From the NCBI GenBank assembly GCA_021647715.1, contig JAKIUE010000009.1:1-37859 (forward strand): 37,859 nt of DNA. Reading direction: 5' to 3'. Below, piece by piece: positions 1 to 25,314 of the stretch (its first letter is position 1; each line of letters begins with the position of its first letter). Source of the stretch: Sulfurovum sp. (GTDB taxonomy: Bacteria > Campylobacterota > Campylobacteria > Campylobacterales > Sulfurovaceae). The notes below the pieces were generated by a model. That model saw nothing but the letters and a program-made list of their open reading frames with translations. It was not told the DNA's origin and made no database searches. The translations under genes were made by a program, and so were the position numbers.

Positions 1-1835
1 CTTTGTGTAAAGACTACTTTATCATTATTTTTAAGTTTTTCTAGAAGATTAGTGCCTGATGCAACTTCTATCATATTTTGATATTTTGGCATACCTTTCA
101 TGAATTGGTATTTTGGAAGGAGTTGGAATTTTAATTTATCTTTAGAATTTTTAAGACCTTGAAATGTTTGAACCAAGCGAATGAGTAACTTATTTGCATT
201 TTTTTCATCAAAATCATTTTGTAAAAACCCTTTTGCCATATACATAGGGTTTGTAATACTAATAGTCTTTTCTTTTTTATCTATCAATAGGCGTAAAGAT
301 GCCATAAAGCCTCTATTTTCTTTATTTGACATAGCTTGTAGCGATTTATCTGTAAATACAATAGAGAGTAAATCTTTTGCTTTATTGAGTGCTGAGATAG
401 AGACTATCTCAAATCCTGCAGATTTAAGTAACTCTTTGGCTTTTTCTACAGAGATAAGTGCACCTCTTAGATAAGCAGAAACTGTACCACTATGCACTTC
501 ACCTACTTTTGTATTGCTTGTAGATTTAGTTTTATGTGATTTACCAAAGCTATGAGGTACATATCCTGGAGGTACGCGTTTTGAAAATTTAATGCTTCTA
601 TCTGTGTTCGAAGTACTACTTGATGCGCATTTGATCACCTTTGGTACGGAAGGGATGGTTATTTTTACTACTTGATCGACTATCTTAATATCTTGTACAG
701 ATTCTTTATTTTTTGTAATTGATTGATCTTTTGGTGCTTGTAAAATTTCTCTCTTTTTTGCGGGTAAGGTATTTTTTGGAGCCGTTTGTGTATCTTTTGT
801 GTTTGTATTTGTTTTTGAGTTTAGTGTTAATGGATTGACATTAGGTGTGGGTTTCATATGTAGACTTTTTAAAATTTTTGGAATTTGTGTATCGAGTTTA
901 TCTATAAGAGATAATCTTGTTTTATCTGTAATATTAAGCGTAGTAGACCAGTTCTCCAATCGGTACATACCAAGGACAAGTTTATTACTCCCTTTTCTAA
1001 TATACATATACATAGTACATGGTGCAAAAAGTCCCGCTTCTGGTCTACCTCCTGGGTTATCAAACATGTGATATGAGAATTCTAAATGACAAAGAGAATA
1101 CGTCCAAAAAGCATCATACTCTGAGAGTACTTCTTCTGCATTGTCTGTTGCCTCCATAAAGTTATGAAAACCTGCTATGAGGTAACCTTTATCTATGAAT
1201 GCTAGTTCAAAGGTGTTTTGAAATTCATCGATAAAATCATCCATGTCTTCAGGGGCATCAAATGTATACTCATAATTTATCATTCTTTTTTCAGGAAGTT
1301 TTTTGTAGGGGATAGTAGCTACATGTCCTCCAAGCTCTTGTGCTATAGTTGCATCTAATGCCTTAAATGTAGCAGAAAATTTGCTTCTTACCTCTTGGTT
1401 TTCAATACCTAATATATCTAACATCACATCGGGAAGAAGATGACCTATATGTGTTACATTTTCATCAAGTTTTTTGTGAATGACAAGATTAAATGGTGCA
1501 AACCCTGCGATACGAGGGTCGATATTAAGTAGAGGTAAAATACTTTCATCTTTTACAATGGGCATGAATGATAATACATCAAGTACAGTTGAACCATATT
1601 TGACTTCATATTGGTCATTGACTCTTTTATGAGGATCTGTTAAATTAAATCCGATACTTTTTAATTTCTTCTCAACTAAACTATTGTACTCTTTTTCTAT
1701 GTTTCCTTTAAAGGTATAATAAATGGCAAGTTCTGTTTTTTCTTTTGTTGGTAGTTGTGTATTATTTGTTGCACAAGCGTACAAAGGAAATACAATGGAG
1801 AAGAGTATAGCTATATTTTTTAAGTAGTTTGGCAT
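1..1835 (-). CDS. DUF302-like multi-module lipoprotein, C-terminus truncated by window edge
   Basis: Manual reverse-strand reading: ATG at 1835, MPNYLKNIAILFSIVFPLYACATNN (lipobox LYAC), open to position 1. Contains LLNIDPRIAGFAPFNL and WTYSLCHLEFSYHMFDNPGGRPEAGLFAPCTMYMYIRKGSNKLVLGM, closely matching the ORF at 5385..6407. Missing from the ORF track because it has no stop in the window. Confidence 0.85.
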   Translation of the reverse strand, partial: MPNYLKNIAILFSIVFPLYACATNNTQLPTKEKTELAIYYTFKGNIEKEYNSLVEKKLKSIGFNLTDPHKRVNDQYEVKYGSTVLDVLSFMPIVKDESILPLLNIDPRIAGFAPFNLVIHKKLDENVTHIGHLLPDVMLDILGIENQEVRSKFSATFKALDATIAQELGGHVATIPYKKLPEKRMINYEYTFDAPEDMDDFIDEFQNTFELAFIDKGYLIAGFHNFMEATDNAEEVLSEYDAFWTYSLCHLEFSYHMFDNPGGRPEAGLFAPCTMYMYIRKGSNKLVLGMYRLENWSTTLNITDKTRLSLIDKLDTQIPKILKSLHMKPTPNVNPLTLNSKTNTNTKDTQTAPKNTLPAKKREILQAPKDQSITKNKESVQDIKIVDQVVKITIPSVPKVIKCASSSTSNTDRSIKFSKRVPPGYVPHSFGKSHKTKSTSNTKVGEVHSGTVSAYLRGALISVEKAKELLKSAGFEIVSISALNKAKDLLSIVFTDKSLQAMSNKENRGFMASLRLLIDKKEKTISITNPMYMAKGFLQNDFDEKNANKLLIRLVQTFQGLKNSKDKLKFQLLPKYQFMKGMPKYQNMIEVASGTNLLEKLKNNDKVVFTQ

Positions 1836-1925
1836 AAATGACCTTTTGATTTTATATAAATATTTTAGCATAAAGTTTATATATATAATAAAAAAAAGTT
1901 ATAATTAAGTAGATAATATGTAGAA

Positions 1926-1950
1926 ACGCTACCAAAAGAAATGGTAGCGT
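1926..1950 (-). terminator. Hairpin ACGCTACC-N9-GGTAGCGT downstream of the 1974..2594 gene
   Basis: Perfect 8-bp inverted repeat between two minus-strand genes; followed on the minus strand by TTTC. Confidence 0.6.
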
Positions 1951-1973
1951 ATTATTTAAAGTATGTAAGAATA

Positions 1974-2594
1974 TTATTTTTGTGAAGCTTCTTTAAGTTT
2001 TAAGTATTCTTCATATTCATCTAATGATATGGTTCTTACTGCATCATTTGCACTATCTGCTACAGTTTTGACTGATGTCGTTGCATCATCAGCAACAGTC
2101 TGTACCGATGTTGTCGCACTGTCAGTTGTTGTTCTTACTGATGTTGCTGTATCGTTCGAAAGAGTTTTTGTTGTATCTGTCATATCTTTAGACACTGTTG
2201 TTGCAGATTCTCTCATCTCCGTAGTTGCTACATTCGCAGAATCTTTTAAATCTGTCGTTGTGCTATGTACAGCTTCTTTTGTATCACTTGATACATCTGT
2301 CACCACTGTTTTTGCATCTGAAGATGTATTTACTTCCATTGTTTTAAGGTCATCAGACATTTTAACAGTAGAGTCTTTAGCGTCTGAACTTACATTGGTT
2401 ACAGTTCTTTCAGCAGATTTAGTAGTCTCAACCATGCCGTCTTTCATAGAGACTACAGAATCTTTAGCATCTTTACTCATGCTAACAGCCGCATCTTTCA
2501 TGTCTTTAAACATATCTCCAAAGCTAAACTCAGCTTGTACACTCGTTAGTAACGCTGTAGCTATTATAGAGGTAGTTATAATTCTTTTCATCAT
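1974..2594 (-). CDS. Secreted 11-residue-repeat (LEA/apolipoprotein-like) helical protein, paralogue A
   Basis: Signal peptide MMKRIITTSIIATALLTSVQA; tandem 11-mers DTATSVRTTTD/SATTSVQTVAD/DATTSVKTVAD/SANDAVRTISL; no Cys. Confidence 0.85.
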   Translation of the reverse strand: MMKRIITTSIIATALLTSVQAEFSFGDMFKDMKDAAVSMSKDAKDSVVSMKDGMVETTKSAERTVTNVSSDAKDSTVKMSDDLKTMEVNTSSDAKTVVTDVSSDTKEAVHSTTTDLKDSANVATTEMRESATTVSKDMTDTTKTLSNDTATSVRTTTDSATTSVQTVADDATTSVKTVADSANDAVRTISLDEYEEYLKLKEASQK

Positions 2595-2623
2595 TTGTCC
2601 TTTTATTTATTTATCTAAATTTT

Positions 2624-3241
2624 TTATTTAGAAAGCTCTTTCAGTCTCATATATTCAGCATAATCTTCAGCAGAGATTGTTTTTACTGCGTCATTTGCAT
2701 TGTCACTTACGGTTCTTACTGAAGTAGTAGCATCCGTAGAAAGTGTTTTTACAGAAGTATTTGCATTGTCACTGACTGTTTTAACAGAAGTAGTGGCATC
2801 AGTAGAGACTGTTTTGGTTGCATCATTTACATCTTTAGAGACTGATATCGCAGAATCTTTCATGTCTTTAGAGGCAATAGTTGCTGCATCTTTCATGTCT
2901 TTAGTGGTATTTGTAACTGACTCTTTTGTATCTGTTGATACTGAAACAACAGAATCTCTTGAATCTTTTGAAGTAGATACTTCAGCAGTTTTGAGGTCAT
3001 CTGACATTTTCACTGTAGAGTCTTTTGCATCTGAACTTACATTAGTAACTGTTCTCTCGGCAGACTTTGAAGTCTCAACCATTCCGTCTTTCATAGATAC
3101 AACAGAATCTTTGGCATCTTTACTCATGCTAACAGCAGCATCTTTCATGTCCTTAAACATATCTCCAAAGCTAAACTCAGCTTGTACACTTGTTAGTAAC
3201 GCTGCAACAATTGCAGAGGTTGTGATAATCTTTTTCATCAT
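2624..3241 (-). CDS. Secreted 11-residue-repeat (LEA/apolipoprotein-like) helical protein, paralogue B
   Basis: N-terminal ~85 aa nearly identical to paralogue A; 11-mers DATTSVKTVSD/NANTSVKTLST/DATTSVRTVSD/NANDAVKTISA. Confidence 0.85.
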   Translation of the reverse strand: MMKKIITTSAIVAALLTSVQAEFSFGDMFKDMKDAAVSMSKDAKDSVVSMKDGMVETSKSAERTVTNVSSDAKDSTVKMSDDLKTAEVSTSKDSRDSVVSVSTDTKESVTNTTKDMKDAATIASKDMKDSAISVSKDVNDATKTVSTDATTSVKTVSDNANTSVKTLSTDATTSVRTVSDNANDAVKTISAEDYAEYMRLKELSK

Positions 3242-3504
3242 TTAATTACTCCTATATAATTAGTTTGTATGCAAATTCTATGATTATTTTTATTAAACAT
3301 CACTTAGAATTGATGATATTGTATAATATCATCAGAATTACTAATATAAGATATTCAAATGGTAACACCATGACTTTACGCTATTTAAGCGTTATATAGT
3401 AACATCTTTATAGTATAATGATAAATAATATTGCAATTTTGACATAATTTTGATTTATTTTGTATATGATGACACTTACAGAAATAAGATGAAGGTTGAT
3501 AAAG

Positions 3505-3915
3505 ATGAAATTTTTTTTAATAATAGGTATATTTTTTTCTCAAATCTTACTTGCAGATGAATATACGCAAGCAAACAGAATACTAGATATGCAAAAAATG
3601 GCACATGCAATGCAAGATATTCAGTCTGGATTTTTTTATAATAATCTTGATATTGTTAAAGCTGGGGTTGAAGACTTAAAATCAACTGTTGTAAAGATTG
3701 GCCCTACTAAAGCTGAAATAAATACAAAAGATGTGTACGAAAAATGGATGAACAATGCTACAACAATGACAGGTCGTACACAAAAGAGAATAGAAAAATA
3801 TTCAGAAACAATGTTAGAACGTTTTCAAGACGGTGATGTTAAGCAAGCACTTAATGTTTATAATCGCATTACGGCTGAATGTTTGAAGTGTCATACGAGT
3901 TTGAGAAAATGGTAA
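3505..3915 (+). CDS. Small monohaem c-type cytochrome, class II (c'/c556)-like
   Basis: ATG at 3505 after AAGG (track start 3496 is TTG); signal peptide; single CXXCH at the C-terminus (AECLKCHTSLRKW); predicted helical body. Confidence 0.75.
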   Translation: MKFFLIIGIFFSQILLADEYTQANRILDMQKMAHAMQDIQSGFFYNNLDIVKAGVEDLKSTVVKIGPTKAEINTKDVYEKWMNNATTMTGRTQKRIEKYSETMLERFQDGDVKQALNVYNRITAECLKCHTSLRKW

Positions 3916-3923
3916 GGTATAGT

Positions 3924-4745
3924 ATGAAAAAGACAATATTTGTTTGGTTGCTAATCTCTTTATCGTTATGGGCATCAGAGATGAACCCTGCATCATTAAA
4001 AGAGAATAAAATAAATTTAACTGGTACAGTGGTCTCTGATGGACAACAGATGATTGGATCTAGGTTTATGGGGTATGTAAAGAAAGTATTTGTGAAAATT
4101 GGTGATAAGGTTAAAAGAGAAGATGACCTTTATGAGATGGAGTCTGCAGAATTTGATATGATGAAAATGCAAGCAGACCTTATGTTAGAACAAACAAAAG
4201 TGATGGTTGATTTTTGGAGAGATAAACTTAAACGTGTCAATGACAAAAAAAGACGTCTAGCTTTTGAGTATAAACATAGTAATAAAATTGATTTTTTTGA
4301 TTTGGCTGATTTGGATGCACAAGCTGAAAATGCAAATAGTATGCTTGAAGCGATGCAAATTATGGTAAAAGAGGCGACAATACGTGCCAAACAAATGGCA
4401 AGTACGTATAATTATATTAAGATGAAAGCACCATCTGATGGTGTCGTGGTCAAACGTAATATTAAGGTAGGTGACATGGTGATGCCTGGTATGCTTACTA
4501 TATTACTTGTGGACATGGAAAGTTTAGAGATAGATGTATCTATTTCAGAAAGTATAATTTCTAAGGTACATGTTGGGAAAAAGGTCTCTGTTGAAATTCC
4601 ATCATTAAAATATAAAACGCAAGGAGTGATACATGCTATTGTTCCTGATGCCAACCCTATGACACATAAAATAAAAATGCGTATACGTTTTGATAGAGGC
4701 AAAGAAAATATATTCCCTGGAATGTATGCAAAAATTACTATATAA
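3924..4745 (+). CDS. Periplasmic adaptor / membrane fusion protein (HlyD/CusB-like)
   Basis: Signal peptide from ATG 3924 (MKKTIFVWLLISLSLWA); lipoyl-like GYVKKVFVKIGDKVKREDDLYEME and IKMKAPSDGVVVKRNIKVGDMVMPGMLTILLVD halves around a helical hairpin. Confidence 0.8.
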   Translation: MKKTIFVWLLISLSLWASEMNPASLKENKINLTGTVVSDGQQMIGSRFMGYVKKVFVKIGDKVKREDDLYEMESAEFDMMKMQADLMLEQTKVMVDFWRDKLKRVNDKKRRLAFEYKHSNKIDFFDLADLDAQAENANSMLEAMQIMVKEATIRAKQMASTYNYIKMKAPSDGVVVKRNIKVGDMVMPGMLTILLVDMESLEIDVSISESIISKVHVGKKVSVEIPSLKYKTQGVIHAIVPDANPMTHKIKMRIRFDRGKENIFPGMYAKITI

Positions 4746-4771
4746 ATGTTAAGAGTCCTAAATCATTAAAA

Positions 4772-4785
4772 TTGATGTATATCAA
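4772..4785. promoter_or_regulatory. Perfect CRP/FNR-family-type palindrome TTGATGTATATCAA
   Basis: Matches the TTGAT-N4-ATCAA FNR consensus; lies 56 nt upstream of the ATG at 4841. Confidence 0.6.
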
Positions 4786-4840
4786 TAGTTATTTTAAATT
4801 TAATTGTTACACTTATATCACAATATAAGGAGTGTAACAG

Positions 4841-5245
4841 ATGATAAAGTTAAATAAAGTATGGCTGATAATGGTTCTCTTAGGTGGGGTTACGTATGCA
4901 CAGGAACATTTCCAATTAGATAGAATGCAAAATATGCGTGAAATGGAAATAGCAATGTCTACTATACAAAAAGGGTTTTTATATAATAATATTAATGTGG
5001 TAAAGAATGGTGTTAATGACCTTAAGAAAACAGCATCGCATACGGAGTCCTTTATTAAAGAAGGTGTATCTAAAAAAGGTATAAATACTTTAGTCTATGC
5101 TAAAAAAGAGACTGAAAATATTACTAAACTTGCAGATGAAATTTTGCTATCTTTTGAAAAGGGTGATAGATATGAAGCTGCCAATGGGTATCTCAAGATA
5201 TTGAGTAAATGTTTGTCTTGTCACCAAACGATTAGATCTTGGTAA
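4841..5245 (+). CDS. Small monohaem c-type cytochrome, class II-like, paralogue of 3505..3915
   Basis: Shares R..M..M..AM..IQ.GF.YNN..VVK.GV.DLK; C-terminal CLSCHQTIRSW. Confidence 0.75.
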   Translation: MIKLNKVWLIMVLLGGVTYAQEHFQLDRMQNMREMEIAMSTIQKGFLYNNINVVKNGVNDLKKTASHTESFIKEGVSKKGINTLVYAKKETENITKLADEILLSFEKGDRYEAANGYLKILSKCLSCHQTIRSW

Positions 5246-5258
5246 TGCAATAAGAAAC

Positions 5259-5281
5259 AATAGCGTATAATTTACGCTATT
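5259..5281 (+). terminator. Hairpin AATAGCGTA-TAATT-TACGCTATT
   Basis: Perfect 9-bp stem, 5-nt loop, just after the cytochrome stop codon. Confidence 0.6.
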
Positions 5282-5384
5282 ATTTCACAACTCATTCTAC
5301 ATCTACTATTTTTTCTCTTCATTTATTTATTTTTTTAATTTACATGTTATACTTAATTATAATTTATTAAAAAAGGAAGTAAAC

Positions 5385-6407
5385 ATGAAAAAAATATTTG
5401 GGATTACATTGATCTTTGCGTTGTGCAGTATGGAGACTTTTGCAGTGGAACAAGTGAAAATATCTGTGATGGAGGATAGTACTAAAAAATCAGTTATTGT
5501 CTATACAATAAAGGGTAATGCAGAAGAAAAATATAATAAAATGATGAAAGAGCAGTTGAAACCTATAGGTTTTCTTGCCCCTGATCCACGATCTGGTGTG
5601 AATAAAGTGTATAAAAAAATGTATGGAAAGACTACACTTGATGGATTATCGTTTATGACTATCGTAGATAAAAAAGGCATCAAACCATTACTCAATATAG
5701 ACCCAACTATAGCAGCCTTTAACCCATTTAATCTTTTAATGTATAAACATAAAGATAAAAATGAGACTATTATTTCTCACTTGACCACTGACGCGGTATT
5801 TGAGATGTTGGGTACAACAAATCAAGAAGTAAAAGATGGTTATAGTAAAAGTATGAAGAAGATAGATGCACTTGTGATGAAGAATTTTCCAGATGCAAAA
5901 ATATCTTATTCAACGTATGAAAAACCTGCGGCTGATACCATGATGAATTTTGAATATGAGTTTAAAAGACCAGAAAAACTTGTAGACTTTATAGACGAAA
6001 TTCAAGAGAAAGTAGAAGATACTTTTGATGAAAAAGGCTATATCATGGCTGGTTTCTTTAACTTTAAAGAGACCTTTGATGGTTCAAACTTACTTCCTCA
6101 AATGGATGAGTTTTGGACATTTTCGCTTTGCCACTTTAAATACTCTTATGCCTTTTTCGATAATGAAGGTGCGAGACCAGATGCCGCAGTATTTGCACCA
6201 TGTACGATGTATATGTATATACAAAAAGATACAAATAAGTTAGTTGTGGGTATGCCAAGATTGCAAAACTGGTTAAGTATGTTTGATATAAAAGATAAAG
6301 CGCGTATAGAATATAATCAAAAATTAGATAAAGAGATTGTAGAGATTTTTAAAGAGATGGGATTCAAAGAGGTTGAATCGACACCATTTACACCTATAAA
6401 ACTCTGA
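5385..6407 (+). CDS. DUF302-like two-module secreted protein
   Basis: Signal peptide; LLNIDPTIAAFNPFNLL and FWTFSLCHFKYSYAFF...VFAPCTMYMYIQKDTNKLVVGM; similar to 1..1835 and 13637..15592. Confidence 0.75.
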   Translation: MKKIFGITLIFALCSMETFAVEQVKISVMEDSTKKSVIVYTIKGNAEEKYNKMMKEQLKPIGFLAPDPRSGVNKVYKKMYGKTTLDGLSFMTIVDKKGIKPLLNIDPTIAAFNPFNLLMYKHKDKNETIISHLTTDAVFEMLGTTNQEVKDGYSKSMKKIDALVMKNFPDAKISYSTYEKPAADTMMNFEYEFKRPEKLVDFIDEIQEKVEDTFDEKGYIMAGFFNFKETFDGSNLLPQMDEFWTFSLCHFKYSYAFFDNEGARPDAAVFAPCTMYMYIQKDTNKLVVGMPRLQNWLSMFDIKDKARIEYNQKLDKEIVEIFKEMGFKEVESTPFTPIKL

Positions 6408-6425
6408 TTAAGTAAAGGAGAAAAT

Positions 6426-6986
6426 ATGGCAGCAGTATTATTACCTTTGGCAGCAGGATTTGAAGAAGTAGAAGCGGTAGGACTCATAGACGTGATGCGT
6501 CGTGGAGGCATAGAAGTACGCGTGGTTTATCTAGAGGATGAAACACATGGAGCACTTGTAACAGGTGCAAATGGCATTACGCTACAAGCAGATATGTCTA
6601 TAAAGAATGTCATAACAGATGATTTTGACATGATGGTACTTCCTGGGGGTTGGGATGGTACGTATGCATTGGCTGAAAATAAACGTGTCATTGAACTTGT
6701 GCAAGAGTTTAAAGAGAAAAAAGTGATTGGTGCTATGTGTGCTGCTCCTTTTGTACTCAAAAAAGCAGGGGTACTTGGTAATGATTATACATGTTATCCA
6801 GGAGCAAAAGATGAGATAAATCATCCAGGCTACAGAGATGATGCTAAAGTTGTTATCGATGGGAATGTGATGACATCTCAAGGCCCAGGAACTTCTGTTT
6901 GTTTTGGGCTAGCTATTGTAGAACGTCTTGTAGGAAAAGAGTCTATGCAAGCTGTTAAAGATGGGATGCTTTTAGACTACTGCTAG
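6426..6986 (+). CDS. DJ-1/PfpI (ThiJ/YajL) family protein
   Basis: MAAVLLPLAAGFEEVEAVGLIDVMRRGG; nucleophile-elbow Cys VIGAMCAAPFVLKKAG. Confidence 0.92.
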   Translation: MAAVLLPLAAGFEEVEAVGLIDVMRRGGIEVRVVYLEDETHGALVTGANGITLQADMSIKNVITDDFDMMVLPGGWDGTYALAENKRVIELVQEFKEKKVIGAMCAAPFVLKKAGVLGNDYTCYPGAKDEINHPGYRDDAKVVIDGNVMTSQGPGTSVCFGLAIVERLVGKESMQAVKDGMLLDYC

Positions 6987-7304
6987 ATGAAAGAGAAAAT
7001 AAAAGAGATACAAATACGTATGGACAATGATCCTAAGCTTAAAGAAGCAGTGGAAAAGATAAAACCCAAAAGGAACCTATGGGGAATTACAGGGATTATT
7101 CTTTTTTTCTTCGTGCCAGAGATTGTTACTTATATTTGGAATGCAGAACTTATATCATGGGCGCATGAACATACACTCACAGAGCCACTAGAGATACAGC
7201 GATGGCTCTATACACAACTAGAAAAGATGTTTATCTCAGGGGTAAGTTGGCTCAACATCTCTTTAGGTGTTGGACTCTTGGTCTGGGTGTTACGGTCTAA
7301 GTAA
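6987..7304 (+). CDS. Small membrane protein of unknown function
   Basis: 105 aa, two hydrophobic segments; ATG directly abuts the DJ-1 stop codon. Confidence 0.65.
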   Translation: MKEKIKEIQIRMDNDPKLKEAVEKIKPKRNLWGITGIILFFFVPEIVTYIWNAELISWAHEHTLTEPLEIQRWLYTQLEKMFISGVSWLNISLGVGLLVWVLRSK

Positions 7305-7322
7305 ACCTCTTTTGTAGGTTTA
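7302..7322 (+). terminator. Hairpin TAAACCT-N7-AGGTTTA
   Basis: 7-bp perfect inverted repeat in the short gap before the YchJ-like gene. Confidence 0.4.
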
Positions 7323-7337
7323 AAATAAAGGAATAGG

Positions 7338-7799
7338 ATGCAACAACTATGTCACTGCAAATCAAATAAAGCATTTTCACAATGTTGTGAACGATTTTTA
7401 CGTGTACATGAAGTTCCTAATACAGCTTTGGAGCTTATGCGGTCACGTTACTCTGCGTATTGTTTAGGAGATGTAAACTATTTGCAGGCTACCACCCATG
7501 ACCACACATGGAGAGATGAAGAGCTAAAGTTCATACAAGACTGGGCTGACAATAGTTTTTGGCAGCATCTTGAGGTAATTCAAAGTTCTGAGGAAATGGT
7601 GGAGTTTAAAGCCTATTATATCTTTGAAAGTAAGCAGCATATGCACCATGAGAAGTCTAGCTTTTTGAAGGTGGGTGACATGTGGAAGTATGTTGATGGT
7701 GAGGTGTTTGAGGATAAGGTAGAGTTTTTGCGTAACAGTCCGTGTATATGTGGTAGTGGAGACAAATATAAGCGTTGTTGTTTTAAGAAACTCAAATAA
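7338..7799 (+). CDS. YchJ/UPF0225-like SEC-C motif protein
   Basis: N-terminal CHCKSNKAFSQCCERFL and C-terminal CICGSGDKYKRCCFKK SEC-C motifs. Confidence 0.88.
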   Translation: MQQLCHCKSNKAFSQCCERFLRVHEVPNTALELMRSRYSAYCLGDVNYLQATTHDHTWRDEELKFIQDWADNSFWQHLEVIQSSEEMVEFKAYYIFESKQHMHHEKSSFLKVGDMWKYVDGEVFEDKVEFLRNSPCICGSGDKYKRCCFKKLK

Positions 7800-7805
7800 G
7801 TTGTT

Positions 7806-9038
7806 CTATGTTTTATCTTTGTTTTTTTCTGCTATCCATTGAGACATGTATTTTGTACTCATCATGCTGTGGTGTTTTAGCATGGCTCCTGTGAAGTTAT
7901 GTAATCGGTGTGCTTCGAGATTTTCTTCTACTTCCTTTATCTTTTTTATGAACGACTCCCCTAAAAATTTCTCATCATAGTGAGCATGTAAAAGGGTAGT
8001 GCCATGCTTTTGTGCTTGATGCCATGCATCTTCATCACTATAGAGTTTGATAGCAGCTTGTACAAAGGTTTCTATTTCATCGGCTATGACACCAGCCCAA
8101 GGTTCATCTTTTTTATGCATGCCTTCACTGCCTAGAGATGTGGTGATGCTAGGTGTTTGGACTATCATTGCATCTAGGAGTTTCCCTTTTATGCCTGCAC
8201 CAAAACGTATGGGTGCTAGACAGATGCGTGTATCTTCCATGACAGTTAAAGCATCTTCTGCCCATCCTTTGATGTGGAATCCTGTTTTAGGGTTGTGAAG
8301 TGCAGTGGCTTTGGGAGGAGGGTAGGCACCATAGATATGTAGTTGGGCTTGTGGTAGTGCTTTACGAATATGTGGCCATATTTTCTGTAAGTATAAAACC
8401 ATATCCCAGTTAGGAGCATGTCTGAAGTTACCTATAGAGATGAAGTGTTGTCGTTGGTTAAACGTTTTTGTTTTTTTGGGAAATTCAGACAAGTTTAGCA
8501 TAAAGGGCAGATGATGAAGTAAAGAACTATTGATATGAAATGTTTTTTCAAGTAATTCCATCTCATAACTGGAGATGATAAGTGAAATGTCTGAGCGTAA
8601 AATACTGGCAATCTCACGTTTGGCTAGATCTGAATATAAATCTTTTTGGGTCATGGGACGGTTTGCTTTATGGGCTTGATGCCTAGCGTGACGTAGGCAC
8701 TGTAAGTCTTCTGTGTCTAGTATCTTTAGGGCTTCTGGACAGTTCTTTTCGACTCTCCAGCCAAACTGTTCTTCCATCATGAAGCGGTCAAAAAGTACGA
8801 TATCGGGTGCATAGTTTTTGATATAGGTATCAAAACTGTCACAGTTTAAAGTGATGCTTTGTGTACTTATGCCTTCGTTTTCTAAGTTTATGGCATGTTC
8901 AGATGTTTGTGCAGGTGTTGAAAATTCTACTTGCCAATTTTGCTTTTTAAAAAGTCTTAAAATGGACATCATATGCGAACCTGCAGCTGATGAATTGGGT
9001 TCTGGCCATACGTAGCCTATGATTAGGATTTTTTTCAT
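7806..9038 (-). CDS. Glycosyltransferase (GT4/group 1-like)
   Basis: GYVWPEPNSSAAGSHMMSIL; ISIGNFRHAPNWD; CLAPIRFGAGIKGKLLDAM...TTSLGSEG donor-site region. Confidence 0.85.
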   Translation of the reverse strand: MKKILIIGYVWPEPNSSAAGSHMMSILRLFKKQNWQVEFSTPAQTSEHAINLENEGISTQSITLNCDSFDTYIKNYAPDIVLFDRFMMEEQFGWRVEKNCPEALKILDTEDLQCLRHARHQAHKANRPMTQKDLYSDLAKREIASILRSDISLIISSYEMELLEKTFHINSSLLHHLPFMLNLSEFPKKTKTFNQRQHFISIGNFRHAPNWDMVLYLQKIWPHIRKALPQAQLHIYGAYPPPKATALHNPKTGFHIKGWAEDALTVMEDTRICLAPIRFGAGIKGKLLDAMIVQTPSITTSLGSEGMHKKDEPWAGVIADEIETFVQAAIKLYSDEDAWHQAQKHGTTLLHAHYDEKFLGESFIKKIKEVEENLEAHRLHNFTGAMLKHHSMMSTKYMSQWIAEKNKDKT

Positions 9039-9193
9039 TTATATACTGTAGAAAAAGTGTGATATTTCATATATTACTCGCTTGTAATTTTAATTTCATT
9101 AGAATATAAATTATAACCAAAATATTCAATTAAATTTTATCTAATCTTTGTTATATTGGAAGCATTTTTTACGAAAATAGCAAAAGGTTATGC

Positions 9194-12100
9194 ATGTCTG
9201 AAGAACCAAAAAATATTCCACAGTTTACCCACCTCCACCTACACACTGAGTACTCCATGCTTGATGGGGCAAACAAGATAAAAGTGCTAGCAACAAAAAT
9301 AAAAGAGCAGGGTATGACATCTGTGGCGATGACAGATCATGGGAACCTTTTTGGATGTATTGATTTTTATAATACGATGAAAAAAGAGGGTATCAAGCCC
9401 ATCATTGGCATGGAAGCATATGTACATAACCAAGATGAACTTGATGATAAGTCAGTACGTCAGCGTTTTCACCTTTGTCTGTATGCGAAAAATGATGTAG
9501 GTTACAAAAACTTGATGTATCTAAGTTCACAAGCGTATATAAAAGGGTTTTACTACTATCCACGAATCAACTGGGAGTTGCTTAAAAATAACTGTGAAGG
9601 GCTTATTTGTTCAAGTGCATGTTTGCAAGGTGAGATTAACTGGCAGTTGAACCTTAGTGAACGAAATATTAAGTTTGGTGCGAAGGGTTATGAAGAAGCT
9701 AAAAAAGTTGCCTTACGCTACAAAGAAGTCTTTGGTGATGACTTCTATTTAGAGCTTATGCGTCATGGTATAGGTGATCAACACCGTATAGACAAACAAA
9801 TCATACAAATTTCACAAGAAACTGGCATTAAGATAGTGGCTACGAATGATACGCACTATACCGAACAAAAAGATGCTGATGCACATGAGGCGTTTATGTG
9901 TATCGCGATGAACAAACTCTATGATGACCCAAACCGTATGCGTCACTCTGTACATGAGTTTTACGTGAAATCACCAGAGCAGATGGCAGCACTTTTTGCA
10001 GACATCCCTGAGGCACTAGAAGCTACCCAAGAGATAGCTGATAAATGTAATTTAGAGATAAAACTAGGAGATCCAACGCCACCTAACTTTAAATTTGCCA
10101 GAGAGAGAGCTAAAGAATCTGGTATTGAGCTTCCTCATCCTGATGTAGAGTACTCTTTAGAAAACGATATTGTGTTATTTGTAGAAGAGTCTAAACGGGG
10201 GCTAGAAAAACGTCTCAAGATTGTACCTGAGGAAAAGCACCAAGAGTATAGAGATAGACTGCAAGTAGAGATGGATATTATTAACTCTATGAAGTTCCCT
10301 GGGTATATGCTCATCGTTTGGGACTTTGTAGATGCTGCAAAGCAGATGGGGATTCCTGTAGGGCCTGGGCGTGGGTCGGCTGCTGGTTCATTGGTAGCAT
10401 ATTCACTAGGTATCACAGATATAGACCCTATGCCTTATGGATTACTCTTTGAGAGATTTCTAAATCCTGAACGTATATCTATGCCAGATATCGATATGGA
10501 TTTTTGTCAAGCACGTCGTCAAGAGATACTCGACTACGTAGTAGACAAATATGGACGTGTGAATGTGGCGCAGATTATTACCTTTGGTAAGCTTCTTGCT
10601 AAAGGAGTCATTCGTGATGTAGCACGTGTCCTTGATATGCCTTACTCCAAGGCTGACGCAATGGCGAAACTTATACCTGATGAACTTGGTATTGACCTTA
10701 AGGGTTCGTATGAAAAAGAACCAAAGATTAAAGAACTTTTAGAGTCTGATCCTCAAGCTAAACGTACATGGGAGTATGCATTGGCACTTGAGGGTTTGAA
10801 TCGTAATGCGGGGACACATGCTGCAGGTGTGGTAATAAGCAACGAGCCTTTATGGGAAAAAACACCACTGTTTAAACCTACAGGGCTTGATACACTTGCA
10901 ACACAGTATTCAGGTAAATATGTGGAAGATGTGGATCTTATAAAGTTTGACTTTCTTGGACTTAAAACACTGACAGTTATCGAAGAAGCATTACAATTGG
11001 TTGAGCGTAGATACGGTAAACGTATCAACTTCGTAGAAGAGAATATTGAAGATAAAGAAGTCTACGAGTACATAGGTACAGGTGAGACGCTGGGAATATT
11101 CCAGATAGAATCTGCAGGCATGCAAGACTTGGCTAAAAAACTTAAGCCAAATGGCTTTGAGGATGTGATTGCGATGATTGCTCTCTATCGTCCTGGACCT
11201 ATGGAGTCAGGGATGCTAGATGATTTCGTAGAGCGTAAACATGGACGTCAAAAAATCACTTATGACTTCCCAGAACTTGAACCTATACTTAAACCTACCT
11301 ATGGAGTGATTGTCTATCAAGAACAGGTTATGCAAATAGTGCAGACTATCGGTGGATTTAGTCTGGGTGATGCAGACTTGGTACGTAGGGCTATGGGTAA
11401 AAAGATTAAAGAGGAGATGGACAAACTCCAAGGTGAGTTTGTTGATGGTGCAGAGAAAAAAGGTTTTGACAGACAAAAGGCTTTTGATTTGTTTGATCTT
11501 ATTGTAAAGTTTGCTGGGTATGGATTTAACAAATCACACTCTGCTGCATATGCGATGATTACCTTTTATACTTCATACCTCAAATACTACTACCCTACAG
11601 AGTTTATGGCAGCTATCTTGACGTTAGAAAAAAATAATACAGATAAAGTGGTACGTTATGTAGATGAGGTAAAACGTATGGGTATGAAACTCTTGCCACC
11701 AGATATCAATAAATCAGGACTTGTCTTTGAAGCACGTAACATTGATGGTGAAGAGGTCGTTATGTTTGGTATGGGTGCACTCAAAGGGGCAGGGGATATT
11801 GCGATTAATAGTATGCTTGAGGCCAGAGGTGAGGGTGAATTTAAAGATATATCTGATTTTGTCTCTAGGATAGACTCGAGTAAAGTCAATAAAAGAGTCA
11901 TTGAAACTTTGGCTAAGGCAGGGGCATTTGATAGTTTTGGATACAGCCGTAAAGCGGTGCTTTCACAGATAGATGACATTATAGATATGGCTAAAAAAGC
12001 AGGGGATGCAAAGAAGCAAGCAGTCAACTCTTTGTGGGGTGATGATGAAGAGATGACTACTGTAACGCTAGAACTCAGCGATATGAAAGAGTTTGAAGAT

Positions 12101-12760
12101 ATGGAAATTTTAGAGATGGAAAAAGAGTCTCTAGGTTTTTATGTATCAGGACACCCACTAGATAAATACCGTGAACAGCTCGATGGTATTAACTATACAC
12201 TAAGCTCTGAGATAGACGATTTAGCGGATGGCTCTCAGGCGATGTTTATAGGAAAGATAGAAAACATTACAGAAAAGATATCTAAAAAGGGTAATAAGTT
12301 TGGTATAGCCAATATCATGGACTTACATGGGAACATTGAGCTTATGCTTTTTGAGAACCGTCTTAAAGAGCTGGATGAAGACTTTGACCTTACTAAACCC
12401 ATAGCCTTTAAAGTCAAGATTACCAAAGATGGTGATTTTACGCGTATGAACATTATGAAAATATCTAATATTAAAGATGCTAAAAAAACCAAAGTAAAAG
12501 TAGAAAAAGAGGTCAAACATATACCTGAACCAGAACAACCGCCACTTATACTAGCATTGAATCTTATGCCCGATTCTAAGACTGTGGAGGAGTTGATGTG
12601 TCTAGTAGAACGTCACCCAGGTAAACGTCCACTTGAACTGCATATTAAGTCTAAACTAGCAGATGTGATTATAGAGAGTAAATTTAAGGTGAGTGAACTT
12701 ATACTTGAAGAGGCAAAAGAGTTGGGTGTTTTTTTAGAAGAGCGTTTAGTTGTTAGCTAA
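9194..12760 (+). CDS. dnaE: DNA polymerase III subunit alpha
   Basis: PHP domain FTHLHLHTEYSMLDGANKI; VGPGRGSAAGSLVAYSLGITDIDP; PDIDMDFCQARR; 1188 aa. Confidence 0.97.
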   Translation: MSEEPKNIPQFTHLHLHTEYSMLDGANKIKVLATKIKEQGMTSVAMTDHGNLFGCIDFYNTMKKEGIKPIIGMEAYVHNQDELDDKSVRQRFHLCLYAKNDVGYKNLMYLSSQAYIKGFYYYPRINWELLKNNCEGLICSSACLQGEINWQLNLSERNIKFGAKGYEEAKKVALRYKEVFGDDFYLELMRHGIGDQHRIDKQIIQISQETGIKIVATNDTHYTEQKDADAHEAFMCIAMNKLYDDPNRMRHSVHEFYVKSPEQMAALFADIPEALEATQEIADKCNLEIKLGDPTPPNFKFARERAKESGIELPHPDVEYSLENDIVLFVEESKRGLEKRLKIVPEEKHQEYRDRLQVEMDIINSMKFPGYMLIVWDFVDAAKQMGIPVGPGRGSAAGSLVAYSLGITDIDPMPYGLLFERFLNPERISMPDIDMDFCQARRQEILDYVVDKYGRVNVAQIITFGKLLAKGVIRDVARVLDMPYSKADAMAKLIPDELGIDLKGSYEKEPKIKELLESDPQAKRTWEYALALEGLNRNAGTHAAGVVISNEPLWEKTPLFKPTGLDTLATQYSGKYVEDVDLIKFDFLGLKTLTVIEEALQLVERRYGKRINFVEENIEDKEVYEYIGTGETLGIFQIESAGMQDLAKKLKPNGFEDVIAMIALYRPGPMESGMLDDFVERKHGRQKITYDFPELEPILKPTYGVIVYQEQVMQIVQTIGGFSLGDADLVRRAMGKKIKEEMDKLQGEFVDGAEKKGFDRQKAFDLFDLIVKFAGYGFNKSHSAAYAMITFYTSYLKYYYPTEFMAAILTLEKNNTDKVVRYVDEVKRMGMKLLPPDINKSGLVFEARNIDGEEVVMFGMGALKGAGDIAINSMLEARGEGEFKDISDFVSRIDSSKVNKRVIETLAKAGAFDSFGYSRKAVLSQIDDIIDMAKKAGDAKKQAVNSLWGDDEEMTTVTLELSDMKEFEDMEILEMEKESLGFYVSGHPLDKYREQLDGINYTLSSEIDDLADGSQAMFIGKIENITEKISKKGNKFGIANIMDLHGNIELMLFENRLKELDEDFDLTKPIAFKVKITKDGDFTRMNIMKISNIKDAKKTKVKVEKEVKHIPEPEQPPLILALNLMPDSKTVEELMCLVERHPGKRPLELHIKSKLADVIIESKFKVSELILEEAKELGVFLEERLVVS

Positions 12761-12796
12761 AATTCATCAATTAAACTCAATTTTATATAGAAATCT

Positions 12797-12802
12797 TATA
12801 AT
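12797..12802 (+). promoter_or_regulatory. -10-like TATAAT upstream of the short DUF302 gene
   Basis: TATAAT about 28 nt upstream of the ATG at 12830. Confidence 0.4.
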
Positions 12803-12829
12803 GCTAACTTATTAAATCAAGGAGATACA

Positions 12830-13426
12830 ATGAAATTAATTAAAGGTTTACTCACACTTATTGGGTTTATAGTCATAGTAGCAGGGATAATAGGGGCTGT
12901 AATGTTTGGCTCTAAAATAGCAAAACTTGATTCTCAGGCATTACCAGAATACATGAAAATGTTTGATAAAGTTTTAACTACTGGTGATCCAGCAAAAGGT
13001 ATGGTACATAGAGTAAAAATGGTGATACCAGAAGGCATGACAAAAGAAGAAGCTTTTGAAAATGCTATAGAGATTATGGATGAAGTAGGCGAAGAGTATG
13101 GGCTTGCAATGGTTGACTCTAAAACAATGCCAAGAGGTGGTAAGACATTTAGTGACGGTGGATTATTGACGCATATTCGTTCTTACTGTTCTCCACATAT
13201 TGCAGATAAATTCTTATCACACTCAGGTGAATTTATAGGATTTATGCCTTGTAGAATTGGTATCATAGAAGAGCCAAATGGTGATATTTATGTATATACA
13301 ATGGGCTTAGAACTTATGATAAATGGTGGGTATCCTTTACCTGATGAGCTTCTTACTCTTGCAAATGAAGTGAAAAAGGGAATGTACGCAATGATGAATA
13401 AAGGTGCAGCACTCGAAGACGAATAA
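12830..13426 (+). CDS. DUF302 domain membrane-anchored protein
   Basis: N-terminal TM; IRSYCSPHIADKFLSHSGEFIGFMPCRIGIIEEPNGDIYVYTM. Confidence 0.75.
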   Translation: MKLIKGLLTLIGFIVIVAGIIGAVMFGSKIAKLDSQALPEYMKMFDKVLTTGDPAKGMVHRVKMVIPEGMTKEEAFENAIEIMDEVGEEYGLAMVDSKTMPRGGKTFSDGGLLTHIRSYCSPHIADKFLSHSGEFIGFMPCRIGIIEEPNGDIYVYTMGLELMINGGYPLPDELLTLANEVKKGMYAMMNKGAALEDE

Positions 13427-13436
13427 TTTATACATT

Positions 13437-13467
13437 AAGTCTTTTCTTTAATAAAGAGAAGACTTTT
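13437..13467 (+). terminator. Rho-independent terminator
   Basis: AAGTCTTTTCTTT-AAT-AAAGAGAAGACTT followed by TT, 10 nt after the stop codon. Confidence 0.7.
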
Positions 13468-13636
13468 CCTCTCAATAATCATTACACTTTACTCTTACAA
13501 TCATTTAATGCTTCATCTTCATATACAAAATTTACACACTTCTATCAAATAATAAATATTATTGATGCTTATTCTATATGTTCTTAATTAGAATAGGATA
13601 AGATAATTAATCTAGTAATCAAAATAGGGGAATAAA

Positions 13637-15592
13637 ATGAGATATTATAAAATAATTTATTTAGTATTGATAAGTATGGTGTTTGTTCAAGCTAAAGAGG
13701 TAAACTCAAATATGGCTGATGTATTACTTACAACAGAGTTACAAGGTTCTGGTGGTAATAAAGAAAAAGCGATAGATGCATTGGTAAAAAAACTTGATAC
13801 TATAGGGTATTCAACAGTCTCAGCAAATAAAAATATACAAGTACATTATTATAATAAATTTCAAGAAAAGAATGTAGAGATGCTCTCTTTCTTTTCTATG
13901 GTGAATAAAGATAAAATAAGACCTCTTCTCCTTGCTAATCCTAACTTTGGTGCGTATGCACCTTTTAATTTTTTAGTTTACAAAACGTTAGATAGACAAA
14001 ATGATGACAATACTTGGTATGGACATCTTGATGCTACAACGATGCTTGACATCATGGGTATAGCAGATGAAAATAATAGAAAGTCATTTAAGTCAATGGT
14101 GCAGTCGTTAGATAGTATGGTAAATAAAGAGATGACTCCAGCATTAAGTAAAAGATTTGAGCATACAAAACCACTACCTACAAATGGTTTGACTAAGTTA
14201 GTGATGAAGTTTGAAAAAACAGATGATTTAGAAACCTTTGTTGAAGATTTTATAGCAGATCATGATGGACGTTTTGCGCAACATGAGTTTATCATTGCAG
14301 GTTTTATAGACTTTAAATTTGAGTATGATGATATGGATTTAGATTTTGACAAGTATGATGCATACTGGGTTTCTCAACTATGCCATTTTAAATTTTCAAA
14401 TGCAATCTTTAATAGAGGCATCCCTGAAGCAGGGGTCTTTGCCCCATGTTCGGTTTATTTTTATATTCCTAAAGGGACAAATGAATTACATGTGGGTTAT
14501 GCAAGTGTAGACAACTGGGTAAATGCGCTTAATTTTAGAGATCAAAGACGTATAGACTACATGAAGGCTATAGATTCGGAAGTGGTATCTATATTTGAAG
14601 AGATGGGTTTTGTACGAGAAAGTCAAAATACTTCTTCGAAAAAAGATATGCACACAGAAGTAGATACACTCAAAGAAGAACTAGCAAAAGTAAAAGCAGA
14701 ATTGGCATTATTAACAAAAGGAAAAGAGACTAAGAAGGTATCTATACCCAAAGAAAAGACTATAAAAAAAGAAAGAACTATAGAAAAAGAAAAGCAAGTC
14801 TCCACTGCTAAAATTCATAAAAAAACATTTAAAACTGCAAAATATGTTATAGGGACAACAGCACCTAAAGCTATGTCAGCTTACTATGCGGCAGAAGCAC
14901 AAGATGTAGAGAATGTGAAGAAAAAACTTGAAAGCAATGGGTTCAAAATACTTTCAGTCATCGAGCCACTTGAAGGACATACTGTCTTAAGTGTTACGAA
15001 TAAGGAACTACAAGAGACTAATACATTCATGGCTGTACTTAATATGCATATTGATTTAAAAAATGAAATACGTGTACAAAACCCATCTTACCTAGGGGCA
15101 GCGTATCTTCAGAAAAATTATAAATATGGTCAGTTTAATCAAACACTTAAATCATTACAGAGTGTTTTAGGTAATTTGTACGAAGTAAAAGATGCATATG
15201 ATACTGAATCATTAGGAAATTTCCAATTTATGATGGGTATGCCTTATTTTGATGATACAATGGAAATAATAGAAGGAAAAAACCTTGAAACAAAAGTGAT
15301 GGGTGACAAATCAAAAAAATATGTTGCATATACACTAAAATTACCTAATGGTTCTATGCTAGTAGGACATAAACTTAAAAAAAGAACCAATGCTTTTCTT
15401 ACAAAAATTTCTGCGGAAAGGAATACAAACTTATTACCTTACCAATCACTTATCTATCAAGATAAAGTGGTTATCTTAGATCCTAAATATTATTTAGCAC
15501 TTGCATTGCCTCTTTTAGAAATGACCGATTTTATGAAAATTGCATCAGCACCTGGAGATATAGAAAAAGATATAAAAAGAGCATATAAATAA
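13637..15592 (+). CDS. Large multi-module DUF302-like secreted protein with charged linker
   Basis: N-module LLLANPNFGAYAPFNFLVYK and YWVSQLCHFKFSNAIF...GVFAPCSVYFYIPKGTNELHVGY; Lys/Glu-rich linker; C-module GFKILSVIEPLEGHTVLSVTN...VQNPSYLGAAYLQ. Confidence 0.75.
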   Translation: MRYYKIIYLVLISMVFVQAKEVNSNMADVLLTTELQGSGGNKEKAIDALVKKLDTIGYSTVSANKNIQVHYYNKFQEKNVEMLSFFSMVNKDKIRPLLLANPNFGAYAPFNFLVYKTLDRQNDDNTWYGHLDATTMLDIMGIADENNRKSFKSMVQSLDSMVNKEMTPALSKRFEHTKPLPTNGLTKLVMKFEKTDDLETFVEDFIADHDGRFAQHEFIIAGFIDFKFEYDDMDLDFDKYDAYWVSQLCHFKFSNAIFNRGIPEAGVFAPCSVYFYIPKGTNELHVGYASVDNWVNALNFRDQRRIDYMKAIDSEVVSIFEEMGFVRESQNTSSKKDMHTEVDTLKEELAKVKAELALLTKGKETKKVSIPKEKTIKKERTIEKEKQVSTAKIHKKTFKTAKYVIGTTAPKAMSAYYAAEAQDVENVKKKLESNGFKILSVIEPLEGHTVLSVTNKELQETNTFMAVLNMHIDLKNEIRVQNPSYLGAAYLQKNYKYGQFNQTLKSLQSVLGNLYEVKDAYDTESLGNFQFMMGMPYFDDTMEIIEGKNLETKVMGDKSKKYVAYTLKLPNGSMLVGHKLKKRTNAFLTKISAERNTNLLPYQSLIYQDKVVILDPKYYLALALPLLEMTDFMKIASAPGDIEKDIKRAYK

Positions 15593-23307: not shown

Positions 23308-24105
23308 ATGATAATGAAAATATTAATAATCTTGATGGTACCATTGTTGCTTCTGTCTAAAGTGCATTATGCTAAAGTTGAACCTTATGAATCGGTTACG
23401 TTAAAATCTTCTGTGAGTGGATTGGTGACTCATGTCGAACTTGAGCTTGAAGGCAGTGAAGTACTATCTAAACGGGTGATACATATCGATGATAAGCTTG
23501 ATATCTTCAATTTGAATGATAGTAAACAAAATGTTGTATTACTCAATGATATGTTGACACTCAATAAAAATTTGGCTTCAACTTTAGAAAATTCTATGCA
23601 ACGTAAAGAAGAATATTATAAGCGTATTTCAAGGTTATCTACAGCTTCCAAAACACAAAAAGATAATGCATATAGTACGTTCAGTGCTGCTAAAACACAA
23701 TATCTGTCAACAAAAGAAAAAATAATTTCTTTACAAAAACAGATATTAGATATGCAATTTAAGGTTTCACGGTTAAAAGATAATATAGCTAAAAAATCAG
23801 TTGTTCTGAAAAATAAATATCTGTATAAACTCTTAGTTAGAGTTGGTGATTTTGTCGCACCTGGGACACCTTTAGCAAGAGTAGATGATGCTAGTCGTGC
23901 AAAACTGGTTCTTTTTTTAGAACCTGAAGAGATAGAGGGGATAGAGGATAAAAGTATTTATTTTGATGGAAACAAGACTCAGTATACACTAAATAAAATT
24001 TGGAAAATTTCAGATGAAAAATATATATCTTCTTACAGAGCAGAGATAGTGATTCCTGCACCTAAAGATTTTTTTTCAAAACTTATTAAGATTGAGATAA
24101 AGTAA
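23308..24105 (+). CDS. Periplasmic adaptor / membrane fusion protein (HlyD-like)
   Basis: Signal peptide; barrel halves KSSVSGLVTHVELELEG and LLVRVGDFVAPGTPLARVDD flanking a long coiled coil. Confidence 0.75.
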   Translation: MIMKILIILMVPLLLLSKVHYAKVEPYESVTLKSSVSGLVTHVELELEGSEVLSKRVIHIDDKLDIFNLNDSKQNVVLLNDMLTLNKNLASTLENSMQRKEEYYKRISRLSTASKTQKDNAYSTFSAAKTQYLSTKEKIISLQKQILDMQFKVSRLKDNIAKKSVVLKNKYLYKLLVRVGDFVAPGTPLARVDDASRAKLVLFLEPEEIEGIEDKSIYFDGNKTQYTLNKIWKISDEKYISSYRAEIVIPAPKDFFSKLIKIEIK

Positions 24106-24117
24106 AATATAAATAAA

Positions 24118-25314
24118 ATGGAAATGGAAATGACATTAGAACAACAAGATAAACAGTATATACTACAAACATACACACGAAGCTATGTGAACTTTGTAAA
24201 AGGTGTAGGCTCAACGATTTATGACGAGAATGGTAAGGATTATATAGATTTTGCATCGGGTATTGGTGTAAATTCTGTTGGACATGCAAATAAAACACTT
24301 ACAAAAGCTATTTGTGAACAAGCTAATAACATTATACATATATCTAATTTGCAGGTGATAGAGCCACAAGTAAAACTAGCACAAAAAATAGTAGAACTGA
24401 GTGGATATGATATGGGTATTTTTTTCGCAAATTCTGGAGCAGAAGCCAATGAAGGTGCGATAAAGATAGCACGAAAATATGGTGAGATACAGTTTGATAA
24501 AAAGCGTTATAAGGTGATTACATTAGAACACTCTTTTCATGGTCGAACGATTACAACAGTCAAAGCTACAGGACAGGAGAGTTTTCATACCCCTCATTTT
24601 TCTCCATACCCCGATGGCTTTAGTTATGAGAAGTCTATAGATGATATATATAAGGCTATTGATGATGAGACCGTAGCTGTACTCATAGAATTAGTACAAG
24701 GTGAGGGTGGTGTGCAACCTTTTGAAAAAGAAGCCGTACAAAAATTAGCACAGTATTTAAAAGAAAAAGATATTTTACTTATTGTAGATGAAGTACAAAC
24801 AGGTGTGTATCGAACAGGTGAGTTCTTGGCTTCAAACTTGTATGAAATAGAGCCAGATATTATTACCCTAGCTAAAGGTTTAGGTGGAGGTGTGCCTATT
24901 GGGGCTGTGATGACAAAGCATAAAGAGGTGTTAAGTGCTGGTGATCATGGTAGTACATTTGGTGGTAACTATTTGAGTACGACTGCTGGTTTGGCAGTAT
25001 TAGAGGTGCTAAGTGGACTGTATGACAATGGGCTTATAGATGAAACACTGCTTTATTTTTCAAATAAATTAAGAATGATAGCTGCTAAGTACGAAAATCT
25101 CTTTGAAAAAGAGGTAGGACTAGGACTCATGAGAGGGCTTCGTGCAAAGAGTGCCCAGATACAAGGAAGTATCATTAAAAATGCTATGGCTGAAGGCTTA
25201 GTAGTACTGAAAGCTGGTCGTAATACAGTACGTTTTTTACCTAGTATTACTATTACAAAAAAAGAGATAGATGAGGGGTTTATACGTTTTGAAAAAGTTA
25301 TTTCTTCTTTGTAG
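24118..25314 (+). CDS. argD: Acetylornithine aminotransferase family (class III PLP aminotransferase)
   Basis: FFANSGAEANEGAIKIARKY; HSFHGRTITTVKATGQ; LIVDEVQTGVYRTGEF; LAKGLGGGVPIGA. Confidence 0.9.
   Translation: MEMEMTLEQQDKQYILQTYTRSYVNFVKGVGSTIYDENGKDYIDFASGIGVNSVGHANKTLTKAICEQANNIIHISNLQVIEPQVKLAQKIVELSGYDMGIFFANSGAEANEGAIKIARKYGEIQFDKKRYKVITLEHSFHGRTITTVKATGQESFHTPHFSPYPDGFSYEKSIDDIYKAIDDETVAVLIELVQGEGGVQPFEKEAVQKLAQYLKEKDILLIVDEVQTGVYRTGEFLASNLYEIEPDIITLAKGLGGGVPIGAVMTKHKEVLSAGDHGSTFGGNYLSTTAGLAVLEVLSGLYDNGLIDETLLYFSNKLRMIAAKYENLFEKEVGLGLMRGLRAKSAQIQGSIIKNAMAEGLVVLKAGRNTVRFLPSITITKKEIDEGFIRFEKVISSL

Follow-up and report, generated by a model that had tools for sequence, protein, structure and literature searches.

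The question raised by this locus is what a group of DUF302 proteins, a widespread domain family with solved but unexplained structures, is doing in the cell envelope of a Sulfurovum-like bacterium. The window (the whole stretch of DNA analyzed, 37,859 nt) corresponds to contig C110 in the draft genome (2.15 Mb) of this Sulfurovum-like member of the Campylobacterota, and encodes four DUF302-type envelope proteins, here called P1 to P4 in order of position (Table 1). No assignment of function to DUF302 was found in the open-access literature. An initial annotation, made from the letters of the window alone, had proposed an uncharacterized periplasmic redox or ligand-binding system, and the results below support that general description. 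They also suggest a more specific reading, to which we would give a probability of roughly 0.42: that the two-domain proteins P1, P2, and P4 are paralogues within a family whose other clade belongs to Sox clusters, and that their Cys pair handles sulfane sulfur or a thiol.

Homology and Domain Structure

The initial annotation had grouped the four proteins by eye on a shared Cys motif and suggested DUF302 as their family. All the motifs it quoted are present. P2 is 48% identical to P1 (E = 2.4e-89) and 31% identical to P4 (E = 1e-47). With the PF03625 profile (cut-off 23 bits), P3 (31.1) and P2 (24.2) score above the cut-off, and P4 (20.4) and P1 (18.3) below it; these last two are counted as DUF302 proteins because of their homology to P2. 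The profile match in P1, P2, and P4 covers only a first domain (residues ~95–145), ahead of the Cys motif. When an alignment of 94 copies is split, however, the two halves prove to be DUF302 domains in tandem, matching each other with an hhalign probability of 98.7% and single-domain DUF302 proteins with ~97%, which links P3 to the other three; matches to seven control families do not exceed 0.3%. The Cys pair is confined to domain 2, with the spacing C..(22–24)..A-P-C, and domain 1 has no Cys.

The fold agrees. An AlphaFold model of P2 (11 sequences; predicted local distance difference test score 74, predicted template modelling score [pTM] 0.75) goes through one and the same succession of strands and helices two times, and its best match in the PDB is the DUF302 structure 1Q9U (probability 1.00, TMt 0.74), with 1J3M (TT1751) in the top four. 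These two PF03625 structures have the same fold as the window proteins and bear the same pair, C-N-P...L-P-C, at the same motif positions; they differ in being single-domain proteins of ~130 aa, while P1, P2, and P4 have two domains and export signals. A phmmer search of the PDB with P3 gave no genuine match; a shorter Cys-pair DUF302 protein from contig C132 of the same genome matches both 1Q9U and 1J3M. As judged by eye, P2 and P4 have signal peptides, P3 has an N-terminal transmembrane segment, and P1 has a possible lipobox (LYAC) and is possibly a lipoprotein.

P1 and P4 extend into a further region at the C terminus. Its counterpart in many Sulfurimonas-type genomes is encoded by a gene of its own (family c15) immediately 3′ of the two-domain gene, which makes P1 and P4 appear to be natural fusions. 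In the first half of this region, profile comparison (72%) gives moderate support for one more DUF302 domain, probably a degenerate one. The second half resembles such a domain in predicted topology, but profile comparison gives it no support (0.7%). Because the P4 model has a low overall quality (pTM 0.44), no claim is made about contacts between its domains.

Two other architectures turned up in the family. P1-type genes at five loci (L135, L136, L144, L145, and L146) have products of ~1,030–1,070 aa that combine the C-terminal region with two complete tandem modules, for a total of four DUF302 domains and two Cys pairs. At L200 (4216–5448), a 410-aa lipoprotein-like protein has two DUF302 domains with a Cys pair in each, a separate double-domain architecture.

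Association with Sox Clusters

Among 61 genomes assigned to the window's genus, 59 carry a two-domain copy, and all 32 of high quality are among them; across the class as a whole, the family turned up in 44 of 298 high-quality genomes. SoxB or SoxC is present in 36 of these 44, versus 28 of the 254 without the family (a raw count, with no phylogenetic correction). At the level of neighborhoods, sox genes lie within 7 kb of 48 of 89 two-domain genes inspected, with several of the others near contig ends. Two stereotyped orders recur: soxX-soxY-soxZ-soxA-soxB-porin-SoxH-like hydrolase-thioredoxin-DsrE-DUF302 and soxC-soxD-soxY-soxZ-(thioredoxin)-MOSC-DUF302, where the final gene is the two-domain one. 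The Sulfurovum copy linked to soxCDYZ adjoins a DUF3373 outer-membrane protein.

In a maximum-likelihood tree of the 94 copies, the family splits with 100/100 support into two clades. Clade A (56 rows) is nearly all sox-linked, its genes standing last in both soxXYZAB and soxCDYZ clusters, after DsrE or MOSC respectively; it includes a copy from the window's own genome, on contig C152 beside soxC, soxD, soxY, and soxZ. Clade B (38 rows) includes P1, P2, and P4, each in its own supported subclade with relatives from other genomes. The DUF302 expansion in the window is therefore old; the initial annotation was right to call it local in the sense of position, but not if this is taken to mean recent. 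The best reading of the tree is that clade B left the sox context and was duplicated in Sulfurovum.

DUF302 genes in sox clusters have been reported before, with their function left open (PMC5037610; PMC5248467; PMC11034169). In Acidithiobacillia, a 191-aa DUF302 protein is encoded between soxA and soxB (PMC5037610), and in Sulfitobacter a DUF302 gene lies between soxF and soxH (PMC11034169). The Campylobacterota family is likewise encoded in sox clusters, but differs in belonging to another phylum, in having two domains, in being the last gene of two types of sox cluster, and in having a second clade outside them. A transcriptome study of Sulfurovum (PMC10045233) found dsrE, soxW, and soxH adjoining soxABXY1Z1; DUF302 goes unmentioned there. 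The presence of DUF302 in sox clusters is thus already published; the papers searched contained no description of the two-domain family, of its coupled Cys, or of its division into two paralogous clades.

Two observations on individual clusters may be noted here. In one single-contig genome (L131, G051:C1:1757500-1777000), three identical tandem copies of a 3,883-bp unit, thioredoxin-thioredoxin-DsrE-two-domain DUF302, lie behind the sox cluster; the cassette may have been amplified recently, or the triplication may be an error of assembly. The window's own draft genome (G000), despite the soxC/D/Y/Z genes and clade A copy on contig C152 (L009), gave no SoxB match at the threshold used; either soxB has truly been lost or the draft is incomplete there.

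Conservation of the Cys Pair

As the initial annotation had expected, both Cys are conserved in orthologues. Among the 94 two-domain copies (P2 numbering), C249 and C273 are each present in 93, as is W296, and A271 and P272 in all. In 89 of the 94, the mature protein contains two Cys and no more; the sole row lacking the pair (L113) has lost both. Single-domain DUF302 proteins of the same class, counted from a profile alignment (three unrelated ORFs caught by the loose profile were left out), fall into 29 with both Cys, 3 with the first only, none with the second only, and 35 with neither, although these lineages are not independent. The pair occurs in several subfamilies: cytoplasmic proteins of 125–130 aa, transmembrane-anchored P3-like proteins, domain 2 of the tandem proteins, and the double-domain protein of L200. 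In the fold, the first Cys ends a strand before a short helix, and the second comes right after a Pro, where the following strand begins. In the TATA-binding-protein-like fold class assigned to TT1751, both Cys would be expected to lie at the same end of neighboring strands.

Two Cys that are present or absent together would be expected of a structural disulfide, and on this alternative the family might be a ligand-binding or scaffolding protein with its active site elsewhere, perhaps formed by other invariant residues (P272, W296, or P114). We consider this unlikely. The same pair is found in the 125–130 aa proteins that lack a signal peptide, a setting in which a structural disulfide would be uncommon, and the genes are concentrated at sulfane-sulfur loci.

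The initial annotation had also counted the His of its CHF/CHL motif, together with the two invariant Cys, toward a disulfide, metal, or haem/sulfur ligand site. The residue after the first Cys is Lys (K250) in 49 of the 56 clade A proteins; His occurs only in clade B, where H250 and H132 are both present in 38 of 38. Since the His is not kept outside clade B, a Cys-Cys-His haem or metal site is not the family's common function, and was rejected as a general explanation. A related alternative is that the Cys pair, joined in the window's own clade by H250 and H132, is a ligand for Cu(I), Zn, or haem, and that the RND/adaptor genes nearby serve metal efflux. Besides the two invariant His, there is a CusB/HlyD-type adaptor beside P2 to suggest this, and the DUF302 protein of contig C132 is encoded beside a P-type ATPase and multicopper oxidases, with similar settings at L235 and L236. 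The adaptor, however, falls well short of curated metal-efflux scores (TIGR00999, 66.3 of 319.3 bits; CusB model, 35 of 390), the exchange of His for Lys in most of clade A leaves both Cys in place, and the most recurrent neighbors of the family are sulfur genes. This alternative seems to us quite unlikely.

Neighborhoods of Clade B

In Sulfurimonas-type genomes, clade B genes adjoin a FadL-like outer-membrane protein and c15. In Sulfurovum they adjoin small c-type cytochromes (family c17), an adaptor (c10), helix-repeat proteins (c14), a DJ-1 protein (c20), and often a resistance-nodulation-division (RND) pump (c23/c26). The c14 proteins, which in the window occupy 1974–3241 on the minus strand, are secreted, vary in length and in number (one to four copies) among Sulfurovum genomes, and usually adjoin P1-type genes. 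The initial annotation had noted c-type cytochromes nearby and taken them to be of class II. C-type cytochrome genes do recur beside Sulfurovum clade B, and the two in the window are paralogues (36% identity), both with a C-terminal CxxCH; membership in class II is not supported, as both fall below the PF01322 (class II cytochrome c′) gathering score of 26.5, with 15.1 bits (E = 0.046) and 12.9 bits (E = 0.23). The strongest association of the family, that with sox genes, lay beyond the region the initial annotation could see.

These neighbors suggest another possibility: a module for stress or thiol homeostasis, in which clade B proteins, DJ-1, c-type cytochromes, and RND export would clear a toxic thiol or electrophile, apart from energy-yielding sulfur metabolism. 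DJ-1, the RND pump, the adaptor, and the c17 cytochromes are indeed conserved neighbors of clade B. Their functions, however, are themselves guesses; clade B is paralogous with the sox-linked clade; and a c17 cytochrome is also found in a sox-type locus (L106, soxY-soxZ-...-c17-two-domain DUF302). Such a module appears improbable.

HlyD and TolC genes induced on S0 have been described in S. indicum (PMC10045233); no match was made between these and the clade B RND locus, and they are not used here.

Cys-Pair DUF302 Proteins Beyond the Two-Domain Family

Single-domain relatives, too, are found at some sulfur loci. At L183, a P3-type gene occupies the slot of the two-domain gene after soxC-D-Y-Z-MOSC, in a genome where no two-domain gene was found; P3-like genes lie near soxC at L198 and L199, and adjoin putative flavoprotein sulfide dehydrogenase or sulfide:quinone oxidoreductase-like genes at L186–L188 and L196. 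Beyond the Campylobacterota, a tblastn search with P3 led to a DUF302 gene on a Methylosinus trichosporium plasmid, in the order soxZ-soxB-DsrE-DsrE-DUF302; a second match, on a Rhodobacteraceae plasmid, had no nearby sulfur gene.

With the cytoplasmic C132 protein, tblastn led to Bacillota plasmids. In six of eight annotated loci, DUF302 is accompanied by a CsoR-family (CsoR/CstR-type) regulator and/or rhodanese, TusA, DsrE, a metallo-β-lactamase (MBL) hydrolase, and TauE; judged by gene content, these six are cst-like sulfane-sulfur operons. One of the other two has a rhodanese and a flavin adenine dinucleotide (FAD) oxidoreductase with a metal-sensitive regulator, and the last has none of these genes. 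These cytoplasmic-type proteins have the Cys pair in common with the window's tandem proteins, but are single-domain and lack an export signal.

Possible Function

Sulfane-sulfur chemistry is the commonest denominator of these contexts, including those in two phyla besides Campylobacterota, and for this reason a role in binding or relaying sulfur or a thiol, probably as a periplasmic accessory of Sox, is favored. The exported protein would take up, hold, or pass on sulfane sulfur or a thiol at the Cys pair of domain 2; a persulfide or polysulfide might form on one Cys and then be resolved as a disulfide by the other. Candidate partners for clade A would be DsrE, thioredoxin, the SoxH-like hydrolase, and SoxYZ/CD. 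In Sulfurovum, where clade B lies among genes for small c-type cytochromes and an RND/adaptor export system, it probably handles the same kind of ligand, and cytochrome c might accept the electrons. SoxYZ, which carries sulfur on a Cys in the periplasm, is proposed as a functional analogy only: its sequence is unrelated (tandem domains vs. SoxY, hhalign 0.1–0.2%), and it carries sulfur on a C-terminal GGCGG arm rather than at a Cys pair inside the fold.

Several observations do not fit this proposal comfortably. No sox genes adjoin P1, P2, or P4, so that a sulfur role for clade B is argued from paralogy. Eight genomes have the family but neither SoxB nor SoxC, and 28 have sox genes but not the family; the two-domain protein is therefore no obligate part of Sox. 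Among the cytoplasmic Cys-pair proteins, some are encoded next to copper-type genes (C132, L235, L236) and others next to housekeeping genes. The C132 gene (L011, 7249–7641) lies beside a copper-type P-ATPase and multicopper oxidases, and those of L235 and L236 likewise beside copper-type ATPases or multicopper oxidases; sulfur and copper settings may both occur among Cys-pair DUF302 proteins.

How sulfur from S0, polysulfide, and thiosulfate is activated and passed on in the periplasm of Campylobacterota is an open question (PMC10045233). These bacteria are major sulfur oxidizers at hydrothermal vents and redoxclines, and the two-domain DUF302 protein would be a testable missing part of their periplasmic sulfur handling, to judge by its presence in every high-quality genome of the genus, its position at the end of both kinds of sox cluster, and its single coupled Cys pair; it would also give DUF302 a functional hypothesis. 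A bolder proposal, which we regard as rather doubtful, makes the two-domain protein an overlooked standard component of Campylobacterota Sox: a periplasmic carrier or relay of sulfane sulfur whose Cys pair is redox-active. Clade B would then have been re-deployed in Sulfurovum, as the soluble component of a system linked to cytochrome c and RND export that carries sulfur or thiols through the envelope.

Gene Features of the Window

Coordinates are given in Table 1. Three of the four DUF302 genes are placed as in the initial annotation; the first, described there as 1..1835, is actually on the minus strand and runs off the contig edge, position 1835 being an internal ATG.

Table 1. DUF302 genes, their Cys codons, and neighboring genes in the window.
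Feature	Position	Strand	Description
P1	3..1871	-	Two-domain DUF302 with C-terminal extension; cut by contig end; clade B in tree
P1 Cys pair	1089-1091 and 1017-1019	-	
Helix-repeat protein (c14)	1974..2594	-	Amphipathic-helix repeats, apolipoprotein-like; recurrent neighbor of P1-type genes
Helix-repeat protein (c14), second copy	2624..3241	-	
Small secreted c-type cytochrome (c17)	3496..3915	+	Cytochrome c′-like; C-terminal CLKCH; PF01322 sub-threshold
Periplasmic adaptor (c10)	3879..4745	+	HlyD/CusB-type membrane fusion protein; PF16576 E 1.4e-28; TIGR01730
Second small secreted c-type cytochrome	4841..5245	+	CLSCH; paralogue of 3496..3915
P2	5385..6407	+	Two-domain DUF302; Cys (C249/C273) in domain 2, none in domain 1
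P2 Cys pair C249/C273	6129-6131 and 6201-6203	+	
DJ-1/PfpI family protein (c20)	6426..6986	+	TIGR01383; conserved neighbor
P3	12830..13426	+	Single-domain DUF302; N-terminal transmembrane anchor; C120/C141
P3 Cys pair C120/C141	13187-13189 and 13250-13252	+	
P4	13637..15592	+	Two-domain DUF302 (C249/C271) fused to c15-type C-terminal region
P4 Cys pair C249/C271	14381-14383 and 14447-14449	+	

Farther along the window, and outside the DUF302 finding, positions 23308–26491 hold genes for a short HlyD-like adaptor (265 aa), an aminotransferase, and a TolC-like outer-membrane protein.

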